A stretch of 16,552 nucleotides of DNA from Glomus cerebriforme (taxonomy: Eukaryota > Glomeromycota > Glomeromycetes > Glomerales > Glomeraceae): NCBI GenBank assembly GCA_003550305.1, contig QKYT01000378.1, positions 16,203-32,754 on the forward strand, read 5' to 3'. Positions within the stretch are counted from its first letter, which is position 1. Every line of letters starts with the position of its first letter. The translations under genes and the position numbers were made by a program. This document shows positions 5,539-15,425 of the stretch, in pieces. A model generated the notes under the pieces. It was given only the letters and a program-made list of their open reading frames with translations, did no database searches and had not been told where the DNA came from.

Positions 5539-6443
5539 TTATAAATCTATTGACGGTTTATTCTTGAATTTTTTTGTTGCTCTAATTGCGGACCTGTATC
5601 GAAATTGGTCACCATACAAAGTATACATATGATCACGAAGTTGAAATGTAAAAATACTATGCCCTTTTGGAATACATTTCATATTATTATCTTTTGTAAT
5701 CAACTTGAACATATTTTCAGTTTCTTGAATAGCGATTCCTGTAACTCCAATATAAGATGCGCATTTTGATCTAGAAACTAACACATTTTAATAAGAAAAT
5801 TAATATTAATTTAAGAGAAAACTAAATTTAACAGTAATACTTATATTTTTCACCTGTAAGAATTGCTCCGTGAAAATCAGCTTTTAATAATTTTTGGCCA
5901 AAAATATTTGGACTTGATTTTCCATAAAGCTCTTCGATATATTGAAGCCAAAGCTCATGTAAAGGAACAAAAAGTTCATATCTGTAAAGAGGCGGATAAT
6001 TTTATAATAAATGTTTAATTTTCCTTAAGTAATTATAATTACTGCAACTTACCTATGACATTCCTTTGGAACTTCATAAATCTTCGATTGTCTCTTCTCT
6101 TTCGCACTCATCGACTTAACTTTCTTTTTTATTTTTATTCTTTTTTTCTTCTCCTCAGAACTCTTCAAAGGATTATCGAGAAGTATAACTTTGTCCTTTA
6201 CTTTTGTTGCATAAATCTTCGCAGGATCCTTTGAGGTAGACTCTATAGATCCTATAACAAAATTTGGGATAAATTTTCTTGTAGTTTCGGAAACCGGCGG
6301 TGATCTCTAATAATATTTTTTTGTAACAACTTGTTTCATCAAATACAAATATATTTTCAAGATTAAAAGAATAAAATTACTTCATTTTTCGCCACTTGAG
6401 AACTTTGTACATAGCGAGGAAGGTGTGAATATAAGTTAGACAT
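5539..6443 (-). CDS. POP4: RNase P/MRP protein subunit POP4 (Rpp29)
   Basis: This protein subunit is shared by RNase P (tRNA 5' maturation) and RNase MRP (rRNA processing); it is nuclear. Four exons on the minus strand, in transcript order, are 6443-6381, 6306-6053, 5981-5854 and 5777-5539. They give 227 aa, close to the human protein of 220. Introns are 71-76 bp with GT-AG ends. The N-terminal third is basic and has a DKVILLDNPLK segment. The conserved part follows: RYELFVPLHELWLQYIEELYG, then QKLLKADFHGAILTV, then the Sm-like barrel region with SYIGVTGIAIQET, FKLITKDN, IPKGHSIFTFQL and LYGDQFRYRS, ending ATKKFKNKPSIDL. These are the diagnostic Rpp29/POP4 motifs. The chosen ATG is the first of the exon and is preceded by AT-rich leader. 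It is divergent from the U6atac gene, whose start lies about 120 bp away. Confidence 0.94.
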
Positions 6444-6490
6444 TGAACTAATAATAAATTTTTTTCGAACGTATATAATCTAAATATTAA

Positions 6491-6507
6491 TGACCGTAAT
6501 CCCATAA
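6491..6507 (+). promoter_or_regulatory. Possible proximal sequence element of the U6atac promoter
   Basis: ACCGTAA at 6493-6499, within TGACCGTAATCCCATAA, lies 57-73 bp upstream of the U6atac start. It resembles the core of animal snRNA proximal elements (ACCGTAA in the human U6 gene). Whether this fungus uses such an element is unknown, so this is a resemblance in sequence and position only. Confidence 0.3.
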
Positions 6508-6532
6508 TTTTCTAAATATTTAAAAAATAGGG

Positions 6533-6541
6533 TTATATAAG
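6533..6541 (+). promoter_or_regulatory. TATA box of the U6atac gene
   Basis: TTATATAAG lies 23-31 bp before the mature 5' end of U6atac at 6564. This is the spacing expected for an external (type 3) Pol III promoter as in U6-class genes. AT-rich surroundings make chance matches common, but the position is right. Confidence 0.6.
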
Positions 6542-6563
6542 TTTACAAATAGCAATTAATATT

Positions 6564-6690
6564 GTGTTGATAAGAAAGGAGAGATAGTTGGCAATCCCCT
6601 CGATAAGGACGGAACTAGGGTCTATCCCTCATCAACACATCTAGTGTTAAGGCAATGTCAATCCCCTTTGGGGTGCGACGTCTTGAACAG
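6564..6690 (+). ncRNA. U6atac: U6atac snRNA, catalytic RNA of the minor (U12-type) spliceosome
   Basis: The 127-nt segment aligns along its length with U6atac as I know it. It has GTGTTG at the 5' end, AAAGGAGAGA at 6575-6584 (pairs with the U12-type 5' splice site), the TTGGCAATCCCC triad and U4atac-pairing region, an internal stem-loop (CCCCTCGATAAGG), a matching ATCAACAC at 6631-6638, and GTTAAGGCAATG-like sequence at 6647-6656. Structure supports it: GTGTTGAT 6564-6571 pairs with 6631-6638. The 3' stem pairs TGTTAAG 6645-6651 with CTTGAACA 6682-6689 (one bulge), GTC 6657-6659 with GAC 6677-6679, and CCCC 6663-6666 with GGGG 6670-6673. It is followed at once by ten T residues and preceded by a TATA box. 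It is not U6, which carries ACAGAGA. The catalytic triad reads GGC (6590-6592) where human U6atac has AGC. Confidence 0.95.
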
Positions 6691-6700
6691 TTTTTTTTTT
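6691..6700 (+). terminator. Pol III terminator of U6atac (T10)
   Basis: Ten consecutive T residues directly follow the closing base pairs of the U6atac 3' stem, as expected for RNA polymerase III termination. The mature RNA probably ends within the first few T residues. Confidence 0.85.
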
Positions 6701-6855
6701 ATGTGTTAGCGCAATGGCCAAAATTAATATTGTAAATTGACTGAATTTTTGGTGGCCAAACGCAAGATTTGCAGATTAAACTCGTGATTAATTAACAGCC
6801 CGAGAAATAAAAAATTTAATTTTAAACAAATACAGAGAAATTTGAAATGAATAGT

Positions 6856-8526
6856 TTATCCAATGCCTCTCGTTCTGACACCAGAATTAGATGCCATTGC
6901 AAAAGGAGTTCGTGTTTGCGTAAAAGGACCTTTAATGTGCAATTAATTTATCAGAAAACTAGTACAGATATTCGAAATTTCCGATTATTATTACCTAAAG
7001 CATTCATTTCGTTCCCATCCATCATTCTTCTTCCAACACCTCCTAATCCTGTAGCATAATTATTGTTGATTCCAATTACAGGTGTTTGTTCACGCACAGA
7101 ATGATAATCTTGCGTTGAAGATTGAACTCGATGAAGCATATAAGGATCACGATAATTGTTTTCTACACGTCAATTTTTTTTTTTTAGTAAAAAAATAAAT
7201 AGTTAGGGTTGAACATAATATTTTGAATACCTTGTTGTTGGTTTATAGGTATCCGGTTATTAGACATTATATTTTCACCATATAATCGTGGCATTCCAGG
7301 TTGCTTGATTTTATAATAAATATTAAAATTTTTTTATTTTAGAAGAATTAAATTTTTATAGCAAAAACTTACTCCATCTTGTCTCATACTCATACCACCA
7401 ATCGGGTTAACGTTAGGAACAGCATTATTTTGGACAGTTTGTTGCATCGCTGGAACCAATGTTCTACGTTTTAATTTATCATACATTATCTATAAAAAAA
7501 AAACAAGATATTTTTTAAGATTCTTAAACAAGAATCAAATATCGATAAAGAATCAATCGCAACAGACTTGTAATTTCGAGAATTGTCTGCTCTTCTCTTG
7601 TAGTTGTTCGGCTAAATCATGTGTTTTTCGTTTTTCAAGTTCCATGTCTTTCTGTAATGCTAAATAAATAAAAATTTTTTAGAATTTAACACAATACAGA
7701 TTAATACATAACATATGCAATTTACCTTGAAGTTTAGCTCTCAAAGCTTATTATTGAAATTGAAAAAATGTTCGAATTAAAAAGTGCATTATCGATAATT
7801 TGCAGCCATATAATATTAAATATTATATTCTTACAAGTAATTTCAGATTGAGCATCTCTCATAACTCCTTGCACTTGCTTTTCTAATTGAGTGTACTTTT
7901 CTTCTAGATTCTTGTACAACATTTCTTGAAAACAAGCTTCCTGCGTTGTCTGATATGTCCAAAATGATAATGCTCGCGAACAAATTTCCACTACAAGATC
8001 CGGCCGAAGACCTGAAAGGACAGACTTTGGAAATATTATTCAAAAGTTAAATATATACATTAATCACGAAAAATAAAGATATAACATATTATACGGATTT
8101 GTAATCTTCGCTTGGATTTAAATCAGTGAATACAATATCGTCACTAATTATACGCAAATTAAAAATTCTCAATCGATTAAACTATATGCCAACAACGCTA
8201 AAATGTAATTAATAATGCTAACTTTTCCGTTAGACTTGTTTCACATGCCGGACAGACCAAAGCCGAAGAAAAAGCATTATTGGCGCAGTCAACTAGAATT
8301 TTCCGAATTTAGTAAGAATTTGAGAAAAAAAAATATATAATTAACATTTACCGCAAAAAATGTCTAAAGAAAAAAAATGGGTTAAATTTTAGATGATTAT
8401 TTATAATTATTTTTTTAAAAAAAATGAAATTAATACTATACGCGAACACGTCGTCACACACGCGCGACTCTCAGTATTTAGAATTTTTCGACATTGTACT
8501 ACATTACACCTCAAATCTGCTTCCAT
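6856..8526 (-). CDS. HEI10: HEI10/CCNB1IP1-like meiotic crossover RING-finger protein
   Basis: HEI10 is a RING E3-type protein that marks and promotes meiotic crossover sites along the synaptonemal complex. Eleven exons in transcript order are 8526-8442, 8363-8352, 8292-8223, 8143-8095, 8024-7835, 7746-7726, 7659-7568, 7489-7373, 7303-7231, 7162-6995 and 6929-6856. They give 316 aa (human 277, Arabidopsis about 304). Introns are 59-88 bp, all GT-AG. The C3HC4 RING uses C7, C12, C27, H29, C32, C35, C46 and C49. Next come the family block DIVFTDLNPSEDYK, SGLRPDLVVEICSRAL and SFWTYQ (residues about 58-97), a coiled coil to about 185, KLQIMYDKLKRR, and an Asn/Gly/Arg-rich tail ending RTPFAMASNSGVRTRGIG. 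All RING ligands are intact. Exon 2 (12 nt, HIFC) and exon 6 (21 nt) are microexons. The donor of intron 7 (GTCTGT) is unusual. The last intron could be retained, which would give a slightly different tail. Confidence 0.93.
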
Positions 8527-10338: not shown

Positions 10339-10469
10339 GCAATGCTTCGACCAAAAAGTTCTCTGGAAAATTTTGAAATTTTTTTTTTCAATATTCCTTT
10401 CTTTTTTTTGTTACCTTCAAAAAAACTAAAATTTACTTTTTAGTTTTCGCATTAACCTTAATTAAAAAG

Positions 10470-12220
10470 ATGAAAGTAACAAAATTTATGTCAATTTTGG
10501 CCCTAGGAATTGGTCTTGTATCGGCCTCTCCTCTTCATCCTAGGCAAGCACCAGTAGGTAAATGGGATATAGTTGGTGACTCTCAAGTTGCGGCTATGCA
10601 CATAGTTCTCGTTTCCTATAAAGACATATACATAATTGATAAACTTGAAGTAAATAAGATTAAACAAGCGAATGGAAATCCAGCAATTTCTGCTGTATAT
10701 GATATTGAAACAAATCAAGTTACACCCCTCGACCTTACTTCAGATACATTCTGTTCAGCAGGTTCGTTCTTTGCCAATGGAACTCTCTTTCATGCAGGTG
10801 GTGCAGAACCAGGTCTTGGATATAATCCAGGTTATCAAAGTGCAAGATTTATAACACCAACTGATCCAAATCCTGACTGGATGGAAATACCGGATGGAAT
10901 GGTCACAAGTAGATGGTATCCAGCTATGGCAACACTTCCAAATGGAAATGTTCTTGTAATGGGAGGAGCATTAAAAGGGACAGGAAAAAATACTGTTGCT
11001 CTTAATAATCCAACTTATGAAATTTGGTCAGCCGGAGGAGCACCACAACCACAACCTGTACAATTCCCCTTTTTAGTAGATGCAATGCCATATAATCTTT
11101 ATCCATTTACACATGTTATGCCAAATTTTGAGAATAAGCAATTAATATTCGTGTTTGCAAATACACAAGGAGTTCTTTTTGATATTGAAACAAATACTGT
11201 AATTTCAAAAACACCAGTATTACCTGGTGGTATTAGATCATATCCATTAACCGCTAATTCAATTTTATTACCTCTTAGACCATCATTAAATTATAAACCA
11301 ACTATTATGATTTGCGGAGGTAATACGGTAATGGAAATTACTTCTCCTGCACTTGCATCTTGTGGTAGAATTGATCCAACTGATCCAAACGCTCAATGGG
11401 AAATGGATAATTTCGGTGGTACCGGACGTGTTATGCCAGATTCTGTTCTTTTACCAGATGGGAAAATTTTATATTTAAATGGTGGTGGAACGGGTTTCGC
11501 TGGATATCATCGTGGTGTAAAAGGAAACCCTCTTTATGTTTCTGATAATCCAGTTTTTACACCTTTCATTTATGATCCTGAAACAAAAGAATGGAATACT
11601 AATTTAGCTCCATCAACCGTTCCAAGATTGTATCATTCCGTTGCAACCTTGGTATCAGATGGAAGAGTTTTCGTAACAGGTAGCAATCCACAAGGATCTG
11701 TAGAAGTTGGTACTAAATTTCCCACTGAGTAAGTTATTAAATTTATTTAATTTATTTTTAATTATTTTACAGATTAAATTTACTTAATTTACTCTTTTTC
11801 TTTTCACTTAGATATCGCGTTGAAATGTTCACACCACCTTACTTGCAGACAGGATTGGCACGTCCTGTAATCAGTAGCGTTGCAGGATTTACAACATTAA
11901 ACACTCAAAGAATTCAAGTGACATATCAACAAACAGTTGAAGTTAAAGTTACAAAAGGACAAACCAATTCATTCATAACAGCTGCTATAATTCATCACGG
12001 ATTTGTTACACATTCACAGAGTTTCTCCCGAAAATATGTTATGCTTAGAGTATTATCTGCACAATATGATCCCGATAATAATAATAATCTTACATTAAAT
12101 CTTGAAATGCCACCAAATCCAACTATACTTCCTCCTGGTCCAAGTTATCTATACATTCTTGATAATGGTATTCCTGCTACTTATTCTGTTGCACTTACCC
12201 TAGGATTTCCTACAAATTAA
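10470..12220 (+). CDS. Secreted glyoxal/galactose oxidase-type copper radical oxidase (AA5)
   Basis: Copper radical oxidases of CAZy family AA5 oxidise aldehydes or alcohols and release hydrogen peroxide outside the cell. Two exons, 10470-11728 and 11812-12220, join in phase across an 83-bp GT-AG intron. They give 555 aa, close to fungal glyoxal oxidase. A signal peptide is visible (residues 1 to about 19, FMSILALGIGLVSA). The active site looks intact: C95 (DTFCSAGS) and Y150 (SRWYPAM) as the cross-linked Cys-Tyr cofactor, Y388 and H389 (RLYHSVATL), and H487 (GFVTHS). The N-terminal half carries kelch-type beta-propeller blades (GTLFHAGG, GNVLVMGG, GKILYLNGG). The C-terminal part, from about FTPPYL, is the DUF1929-type domain. 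GFVTHS sits in it. The order CSAGS then RWYPAM suits the glyoxal oxidase branch (AA5_1), but the substrate cannot be read from sequence. It is a single gene with no linked pathway partner. Confidence 0.93.
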
Positions 12221-14051: not shown

Positions 14052-14237
14052 GTAATAGTTAATTTATGATCACGGGATATGCACCAATGATTGACAAAAA
14101 CCGTGCCTGCGCCCACATTTTCCTGAGCTCATTTCATTTTTAACAATAAACCTCTCATAATCTTTAGATCTACAAACTTTCCTGATTTTTAAATTCATTT
14201 TTTATTAGAAATTTACGATAGGTTATAAAATATAATT

Positions 14238-15425
14238 ATGGATAAGGAAAAAGAATTAGAAGAAATTTTTGGAAATGACGCAGATGAGTTGTCTGATGTC
14301 TTGGAAGATTATTCCGATTTCGATAACGCAAGTTCTGAAGAAGACGTAAGGAAATCCTCTGTAAAGTTAAAACATAAGAGATCTCCAACACGTCATACTT
14401 CAGAAGGAGACAAGTATGATGAAGAATATGTTCCTACACCACCTTCAAATAAAAGACGCAGGAAAACAACTGAACCTCGAGTAAAACGACGAAAACGTGC
14501 TGAAAGGATAGAAAGTGTTGGTGATCTAGATGAAGATGAATCAGGAAATGTAGAACCCGCTTTAGCACCGTTAATGGCGTCCAAGGCTTTTGTCGATCGT
14601 GATTTTGATGAGATTCTACCAAAGAGAAAAGGTCGATCGAAGAAGACTGATATTGAACTTGATAAAATGTATGATGATCAGGCTTCAAAAGTTTATCAGC
14701 GCATGATGGAAGCTGGTGAAAAAGACCTATCTAATAATGTTCGAGGAAATCATTCATCTGAAAGAAATCAAATTTTATCGTGGGTTATGGACAAATTGGA
14801 AAAAGCGTACCTTAGAGAATCATTATTAGAACATAATATATTAGATGCAATTAAATTGTGGCTTGAACCATTACCAGATCGTTCATTACCAAGTCATAAT
14901 ATTCAGGAAGATTTATTAAAATCATTAGATGATGTAAGTTTAAATTAAGAACATGAAATGGGAGTTGATTCAATTTAACATAATTTTTATTTATTTTATT
15001 TATTTTTTATTTTAGTTCAACATCACAACTGATCATTTATTGAGCTCAAAAGTTGGTCGTATCGTACATTTCTACTCGAAAAGTCCTCGTATAAACATAA
15101 ACATCCAAAGACAAGCACAACAATTAGTTGATAAATGGGCTGGACCAATCAATGGAGAATCAAGCAATTATAGAGAAAAAATTATGAGAATGGTTCATGA
15201 AGCAAATTCGTGAGTATTTTGATTTATTTGAAAGAATAATATGAATTTTATTGTATATAATTAATAAATAATTTTTATAAATTTATTTTTAGTGGAGCAC
15301 CTTTACCGGTTGCTGGTACATTTGATAATATCCCAACGATTCGTGGCGGTAAGCGTGACGACCCTTACAAGAACATCAAAAGGACAATGGCTCGATTGAA
15401 ACGTACTGGAAAATTCGGAAAATAA
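14238..15425 (+). CDS. IWS1: IWS1/SPN1 transcription elongation factor
   Basis: IWS1 (Spn1 in yeast) binds Spt6 and RNA polymerase II during elongation and links transcription to chromatin and mRNA export. Three exons, 14238-14933, 15016-15209 and 15293-15425, join in phase with GT-AG introns of 82 and 83 bp and give 340 aa (yeast Spn1 is about 410). Residues 1-65 are acidic and probably disordered. Residues 72-90 are basic (KRRRK, KRRKR), a likely nuclear localisation signal. From about residue 150 the conserved Iws1/TFIIS N-terminal-like helical domain begins (YQRMMEAGEKD, ILSWVMDKLEKAYLRESLLEHN, LDAIKLWLEPLPD). It continues in exon 2 to QLVDKWAGPI, followed by a basic C-terminal tail (KRTMARLKR). 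EEIFGNDADEL near the N-terminus resembles short TFIIS-N-domain-interacting motifs of elongation factors. The first exon alone would read 236 aa into intron 1 and lose the end of the domain. Confidence 0.94.

Follow-up and report, generated by a model that had tools for sequence, protein, structure and literature searches.

U6atac in Glomus cerebriforme: the gene, its minor-spliceosome partners and the promoters of snRNA genes

Minor (U12-type) splicing has been documented in a relative of the fungus studied here. Larue and Roy (2023, PMC10639083) report that Rhizophagus irregularis has the full set of four minor snRNAs, together with 205 minor introns; the main text of that paper does not contain the words Glomus or cerebriforme. 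The mucoralean Lichtheimia corymbifera, a basal fungus, has U12 and U6atac among its described snRNAs, and the authors of that study saw no TATA/PSE motifs of the expected kind at its Pol III genes (PMC4133162). In plants, one upstream element (USE, RTCCCACATCG), together with a TATA box, is described for the snRNA genes of both Pol II and Pol III (PMC9845283). In human cells, U12 is one of the genes bound by SNAPc at which Pol II is reported to predominate (PMC3499247). The telomerase RNA of Hymenoptera, from a class of RNAs believed to be made by Pol II, is reported to have switched to a type 3 Pol III promoter (PMC9841428).

Here we describe a U6atac gene of Glomus cerebriforme, an arbuscular mycorrhizal fungus of the Glomeromycotina. 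The gene lies in a stretch of 16,552 nucleotides (the window) on contig QKYT01000378.1, and its partners were sought in the 112.5 Mb assembly. Since minor splicing is published for the relative R. irregularis, the system is of a known kind.

The U6atac gene and its partners

We found that positions 6564-6699 of the window are a genuine U6atac snRNA gene of G. cerebriforme, of which one copy was found. A U6atac gene had been proposed here in a preliminary description made from the letters of the sequence, and the covariance search bore this out. U6atac (RF00619) was the single Rfam family detected by cmscan in the whole window (6564-6699, + strand; score 77.2 bits, gathering threshold 33; E 1.9e-17), and the match covered model positions 1-126 of 126, the full length. 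A permissive Rfam search found no other family at 6300-6960, even at E ≤ 1. Since no second family matches there, U6 is no competitor at this locus, and we rejected the reading of the gene as a U6 paralogue. The features of the RNA are as follows.

6564-6699, + strand: U6atac snRNA gene (RF00619, 77.2 bits, full-length)
6575-6584, + strand: box AAAGGAGAGA for pairing to the 5' splice site of U12-type introns; same letters as the Rfam consensus, position checked
6590-6592, + strand: catalytic triad, GGC in place of AGC; under the consensus AGC in cmscan, pairing with U12 in the register used
6595-6613, + strand: segment pairing with the 5' end of U4atac; 18/19 positions, same duplex by RNAduplex
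6644-6690, + strand: 3' stem-loop, from the cmscan structure line and alignment; a stem-loop is present there in the minimum-energy fold
6691-6700, + strand: T10 run, putative Pol III terminator, from the sequence

The 5' splice-site pairing box looked for in U6atac, AAGGAGAGA, is present as AAAGGAGAGA at 6575-6584; we take its role in pairing with the U12-type 5' splice site to be established. This box, a TATATAA at 6534-6540 and the T10 run at 6691-6700 had all been named in the preliminary description and are in place. The catalytic triad, for which AGC was expected, reads GGC at 6590-6592, and the family call rests on the score of the whole model. As to the claim that base pairing is kept where the sequence differs, no broken pair is marked in the printed part of the cmscan alignment, which omits 17 bases in the region of the 3' loop. 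In the pairing with U4atac, one consensus G-C pair is G-A here.

The gene was the sole U6atac match at E ≤ 0.001 across the 112.5 Mb assembly. Of 2738 candidates from the first look, 46 went on to scoring, so this copy number is a lower bound. None of 14 control genomes gave a U6atac match.

One flank of the U6atac gene holds an RNase P/MRP p29 gene, and the other holds open frames without an assigned type. Genes and domains recognised elsewhere in the window are listed with it.

5539-5787, - strand: RNase P/MRP p29 gene
10377-12220: copper radical (glyoxal) oxidase gene; a G. cerebriforme protein matches 99% of the query at 100% identity
811-1509, + strand: hAT transposase C-terminal dimerisation region and RNase-H fold

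Two further frames gave no Pfam match. By eye, the frame at 7734-8039 (- strand) recalls a HEI10-like meiotic E3 ligase and that at 14229-14948 (+ strand) an Iws1-like elongation factor.

All four snRNAs of the minor spliceosome, U11, U12, U4atac and U6atac, scored above their Rfam cut-offs in the assembly. We found one U4atac gene (55.9 bits, barely above the cut-off of 53), one U12 gene (70.8 bits, cut-off 53) and two U11 genes (77 and 69.2 bits, cut-off 39). Scoring was confined to the best candidates, which makes these copy numbers lower bounds. In the 14 control genomes, none of these four families turned up.

Locus L002, 1501-1623: U4atac gene
Locus L004, 1501-1646, - strand: U11 gene
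Locus L005, 1501-1644, + strand: U11 gene

The two U11 copies have unlike 5' ends (TAAAAGGG and TACAAGGG). They differ in one stem by a G-C to A-U exchange (ATGGGC/GCCCAT vs ATGGAC/GTCCAT), and therefore both look maintained.

Of positions 1-19 of U4atac, 18 pair with U6atac 6595-6613. Both bases of one pair are exchanged (C-G in the Rfam consensus lines, U-A here). C-G pairs stand at two positions that are U-U in the consensus, and another two are now paired through a change in U4atac.

The genome also contains a U11-48K gene with a PF05253 domain. Its 242-residue product, spliced by script, matched human U11/U12 48K at E 1.3e-17. Among 23 homologues, 19 are from species that we placed in Glomeromycotina, one is from Jimgerdemannia and one from Piromyces. 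PF05253 by itself is not specific: it also occurs in one of the 14 control genomes (Sulfolobus) and in gametocyte-specific factor 1.

Of the partners named in the preliminary description (U4atac, U11, U12 and the 65K, 48K and 35K proteins), we found U4atac, U12 and two U11 genes above their cut-offs, and the 48K protein. Its reading of U6atac as the mark of a minor spliceosome is supported, and none of the results that it gave as grounds for rejection was obtained. That the U12-type system is a working one, as it had proposed, is suggested by the intact partners and their pairing.

We also scanned by script for U12-type introns, which carry the signals RTATCCTT and TCCTTAAC; their pattern of 5' splice site, branch site and YAG is described in PMC2426677. 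The script returned six weak candidates and no convincing U12-type intron in 295,459 bases, some of them overlapping; the scan is uninformative because fewer than one U12-type intron is expected in 295 kb at the density of R. irregularis. A candidate in the U11-48K gene (GTATCCTTG) was rejected: the stretch is coding, with V-x-S-L kept in 9 of 11 homologues aligned.

Promoters of the snRNA genes and the polymerase of U12

We found that the U6atac promoter has a layout common to the U6 and SRP RNA genes. It contains two elements.

6499-6507, + strand: upstream element ATCCCATAA (USE/PSE-like) at -65, an exact match to RTCCCAYAW
6529-6543, + strand: Pol III-class TATA block AGGGTTATATAAGTT, including TATATAA at 6534-6540; matrix score 18.9, leave-one-out

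We compared 19 snRNA and SRP genes above Rfam cut-off (three each of U1, U2, U5 and U6, two of U11, and one each of U4, U12, U4atac, U6atac and SRP RNA). An exact RTCCCAYAW, an element similar to the plant USE (RTCCCACATCG), lay 44-73 bases upstream of 17 of the 19. The exceptions were U4, with a one-mismatch form (ACCCATAAT, found by eye), and U6c, which has no such element. Three weaker loci were excluded from the counts (L017, L010 and L025, sub-threshold U1-, U6- and SRP-like copies), and none has an exact element. One of them, L017, is a U1-like copy that keeps a 3' box and has a degenerate upstream element. The RNA of U6c (L009, - strand) is identical to that of the other U6 genes; the upstream element is missing as if lost, and the gene has a T21 run.

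A subunit of the factor that binds the USE/PSE is encoded in the genome. SNAPC3 (PF12251) gave three exon matches on one contig, and the joined stretch matched human SNAPC3 at E 7.3e-37. Of its 27 homologues, 22 are from species that we placed in Glomeromycotina, and those outside include one each from Basidiobolus, Coemansia and Dispira; the search was limited by length and shared words, and absence elsewhere is uninformative. A common upstream element and an encoded SNAPc subunit point to promoters of SNAPc type.

The promoters fall into two classes, for which training genes were sorted by their established polymerase, with U12 and U4atac outside both training sets. The TATA block scored 11.7-19.1 (leave-one-out) in five Pol III reference genes (U6a, U6b, U6c, U6atac and SRP) and at most 8.3 in twelve Pol II-type genes (U1, U2, U4, U5 and U11). 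The 3' box scored at most 6.2 in the former and 15.8-28.8 in the latter, a clean split that is partly by construction because the genes were pre-sorted and the box was found by looking. The box, AGCGGG, starts 8-20 bases past the gene end in 12/12 Pol II-type genes. It is a candidate 3' processing box of G. cerebriforme (loci L004, L005, L011-L016, L018-L020 and L046). USE and TATA are 35 apart in U6a, U6b, U6atac and SRP; both elements were found in eleven of the Pol II-type genes, at distances of 12-32.

Other marks of class did less well. The genes are separated by their spacing, by the AGGG-type block and by the 3' box, but not by a TATA box alone. A run of at least six T ends all three U6 genes and is also found near the 3' end of three of the twelve Pol II-type genes (U5a-c), and internal T runs of at most 3 are also a property of three of the twelve (U1a, U1b and U4). 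We therefore demoted a terminal T run and the absence of internal T runs as marks of Pol III. U4atac has an upstream element and a TATA at a spacing of 22, scores 2.9 for the TATA block and 2.6 for the 3' box, and fits neither class; the two classes are therefore not exhaustive.

The external promoter, the T run and the 3' stem-loop of the U6atac gene are those expected of a Pol III gene, as judged by sequence. Very probably, U6atac is made by Pol III from a SNAPc-type promoter and works with U4atac and U12 in U12-type splicing. The gene, the partner RNAs, their pairing potential and the promoter elements were seen directly; from established minor-spliceosome biology, we infer expression, polymerase and splicing activity as follows. 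SNAPc would bind the USE at -65 and TBP the TATA at -30, and Pol III would transcribe an RNA ending in the T10 run. U4atac would hold this RNA in the near-continuous duplex of 19 positions. Once U6atac is released, the AAAGGAGAGA box would replace U11 at the 5' splice site, and the 5' portion of the RNA would join U12 in the catalytic core, with removal of U12-type introns.

The U12 gene has a promoter resembling that of U6atac.

Locus L003, 1501-1663: U12 gene with a U6/SRP-type promoter, a T9 run and no 3' box

Its TATA block scored 19.9 with a matrix built without U12, its 3' box scored -5.6, the USE-TATA spacing is 35, and T9 stands at the 3' end. With an earlier matrix, made without SRP and U4, the score of the U12 TATA block was reached at a frequency of 3.4e-5 among 176,988 positions. 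Past the USE core, 25, 25 and 26 of 43 promoter positions are identical to U6atac, U6a and U6b, respectively, and 5-16 of 43 to the twelve other genes compared (U6c, SRP and U4 lie outside this comparison). Random 43-mers reach 25 identities at a frequency of 3.7e-4. The promoter of U12 and its 3' end are those predicted for a type 3 Pol III gene of the U6/U6atac/SRP class, and we consider that U12 is likely to be a Pol III gene in G. cerebriforme.

Our results might also indicate that U12 is still a Pol II gene, and that its U6-like TATA block and T9 run are coincidental or do not decide the polymerase. Human U12 is reported to be bound by Pol II (PMC3499247), runs of at least six T also occur at U5a-c and internal T runs of at most 3 in U1a, U1b and U4 (three of twelve Pol II-type genes in each case), and the example of U4atac shows that a gene may belong to neither class. 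However, the TATA block of U12 scores 19.9, against 11.7-19.1 in the Pol III reference genes and at most 8.3 in the Pol II-type genes, its 35-bp spacing is that of U6a, U6b, U6atac and SRP, and it lacks the 3' box present in 12/12 Pol II-type genes. We regard this alternative as unlikely.

We lean towards a fuller reading, in which U12 has moved from Pol II to Pol III, so that U12 and U6atac would both be Pol III transcripts from one type of promoter, U12 would be without a Pol II cap, and the GGC triad of U6atac would be fully paired to the 5' end of U12. A cap-linked assembly route is thought to load Sm proteins on U12; if U12 is a Pol III transcript, this loading must differ here. The 5' region of U12 had no match in viral contigs. 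Among the titles and beginnings of abstracts listed in our literature search, none reports U12 made by Pol III.

The catalytic triad

All known U6 snRNAs are reported to share the AGC triad without variation (PMC3510501). In the G. cerebriforme genome, AGC is kept by the three U6 genes that score above cut-off, and U6atac has GGC.

Against the 5' end of U12, the triad region of the fungal RNAs is paired at 5/5 positions (UUGCC x GGCAA), and that of the Rfam consensus lines at 3/5 in the same register (AUGCC x AGCAC). We take this register to be that of U12/U6atac helix I. RNAduplex gave -6.9 for the fungal U12/U6atac pair in the same register and -5.3 for the consensus lines in another register. 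Consensus U12 with the fungal U6atac stretch gave -7.6. Because consensus U12 pairs with the fungal U6atac at least as well as the fungal U12 does, U12 itself is without clear co-adaptation.

The G at 6590 might be an assembly error, the true triad being AGC: the change is a single base in a single assembly, and U12 is without clear co-adaptation (-7.6 with consensus U12 vs -6.9 with fungal U12). Against an error, the substituted G is paired to a C of U12 in the register used, and at an adjacent position a U-A pair stands where the consensus lines have a-c. We think an error at this base improbable.

A decayed, non-functional copy, with the replacement of the triad A by G and the loss of one consensus pair with U4atac as signs of decay, is highly implausible, as the match is full-length and no second U6atac copy was found, the promoter and terminator are laid out as at U6, and 18/19 positions pair with U4atac, including one two-sided change. 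We thus hold a pseudogene to be unlikely. A GGC triad would probe whether splicing catalysis really depends on the A of AGC.

Comparison with known systems

The gene resembles RF00619 U6atac in its full-length match, its 5' splice-site box, its stem-loops and its T-run end, and differs in the triad, which is AGC in the consensus and GGC at 6590-6592 here. G. cerebriforme is like R. irregularis (PMC10639083) in being a member of the Glomeromycotina with all four minor snRNAs and in having minor-spliceosome proteins, 48K being the one found here. They differ in that 205 minor introns are demonstrated in R. irregularis, whereas the system of G. cerebriforme is known from its snRNA and 48K genes; the passages of that paper considered here treat neither promoters nor the polymerase of U12. 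These sequences add one more species of Glomeromycotina to the fungi with a documented minor snRNA set.

The larger value lies in the surroundings: in one genome of an early-diverging fungus, the snRNA and SRP genes follow a consistent promoter code. U12 and U6atac are found in both L. corymbifera and G. cerebriforme, but TATA/PSE-type motifs have been found only in the latter; the promoter code contrasts with the report from Lichtheimia, where the expected motifs went unfound (PMC4133162). The likeness to plants is that one element serves both polymerase classes and the USE-TATA spacing depends on class (PMC9845283). The element itself differs, being RTCCCAYAW in G. cerebriforme, and the spacing is reversed relative to that described for plants: it is longest in the Pol III genes (35) and shorter in the Pol II-type genes (21-32 in 10 of 11, and 12 in U11a). 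Unlike plants, G. cerebriforme has a downstream AGCGGG box at its Pol II-type genes.

The possible history of U12 is like that of the telomerase RNA of Hymenoptera, in which a switch from Pol II to Pol III was likewise inferred partly from promoter class (PMC9841428). The RNA is a different one, and transcripts were examined in that study, whereas U12 of G. cerebriforme is known as a sequence in the genome.
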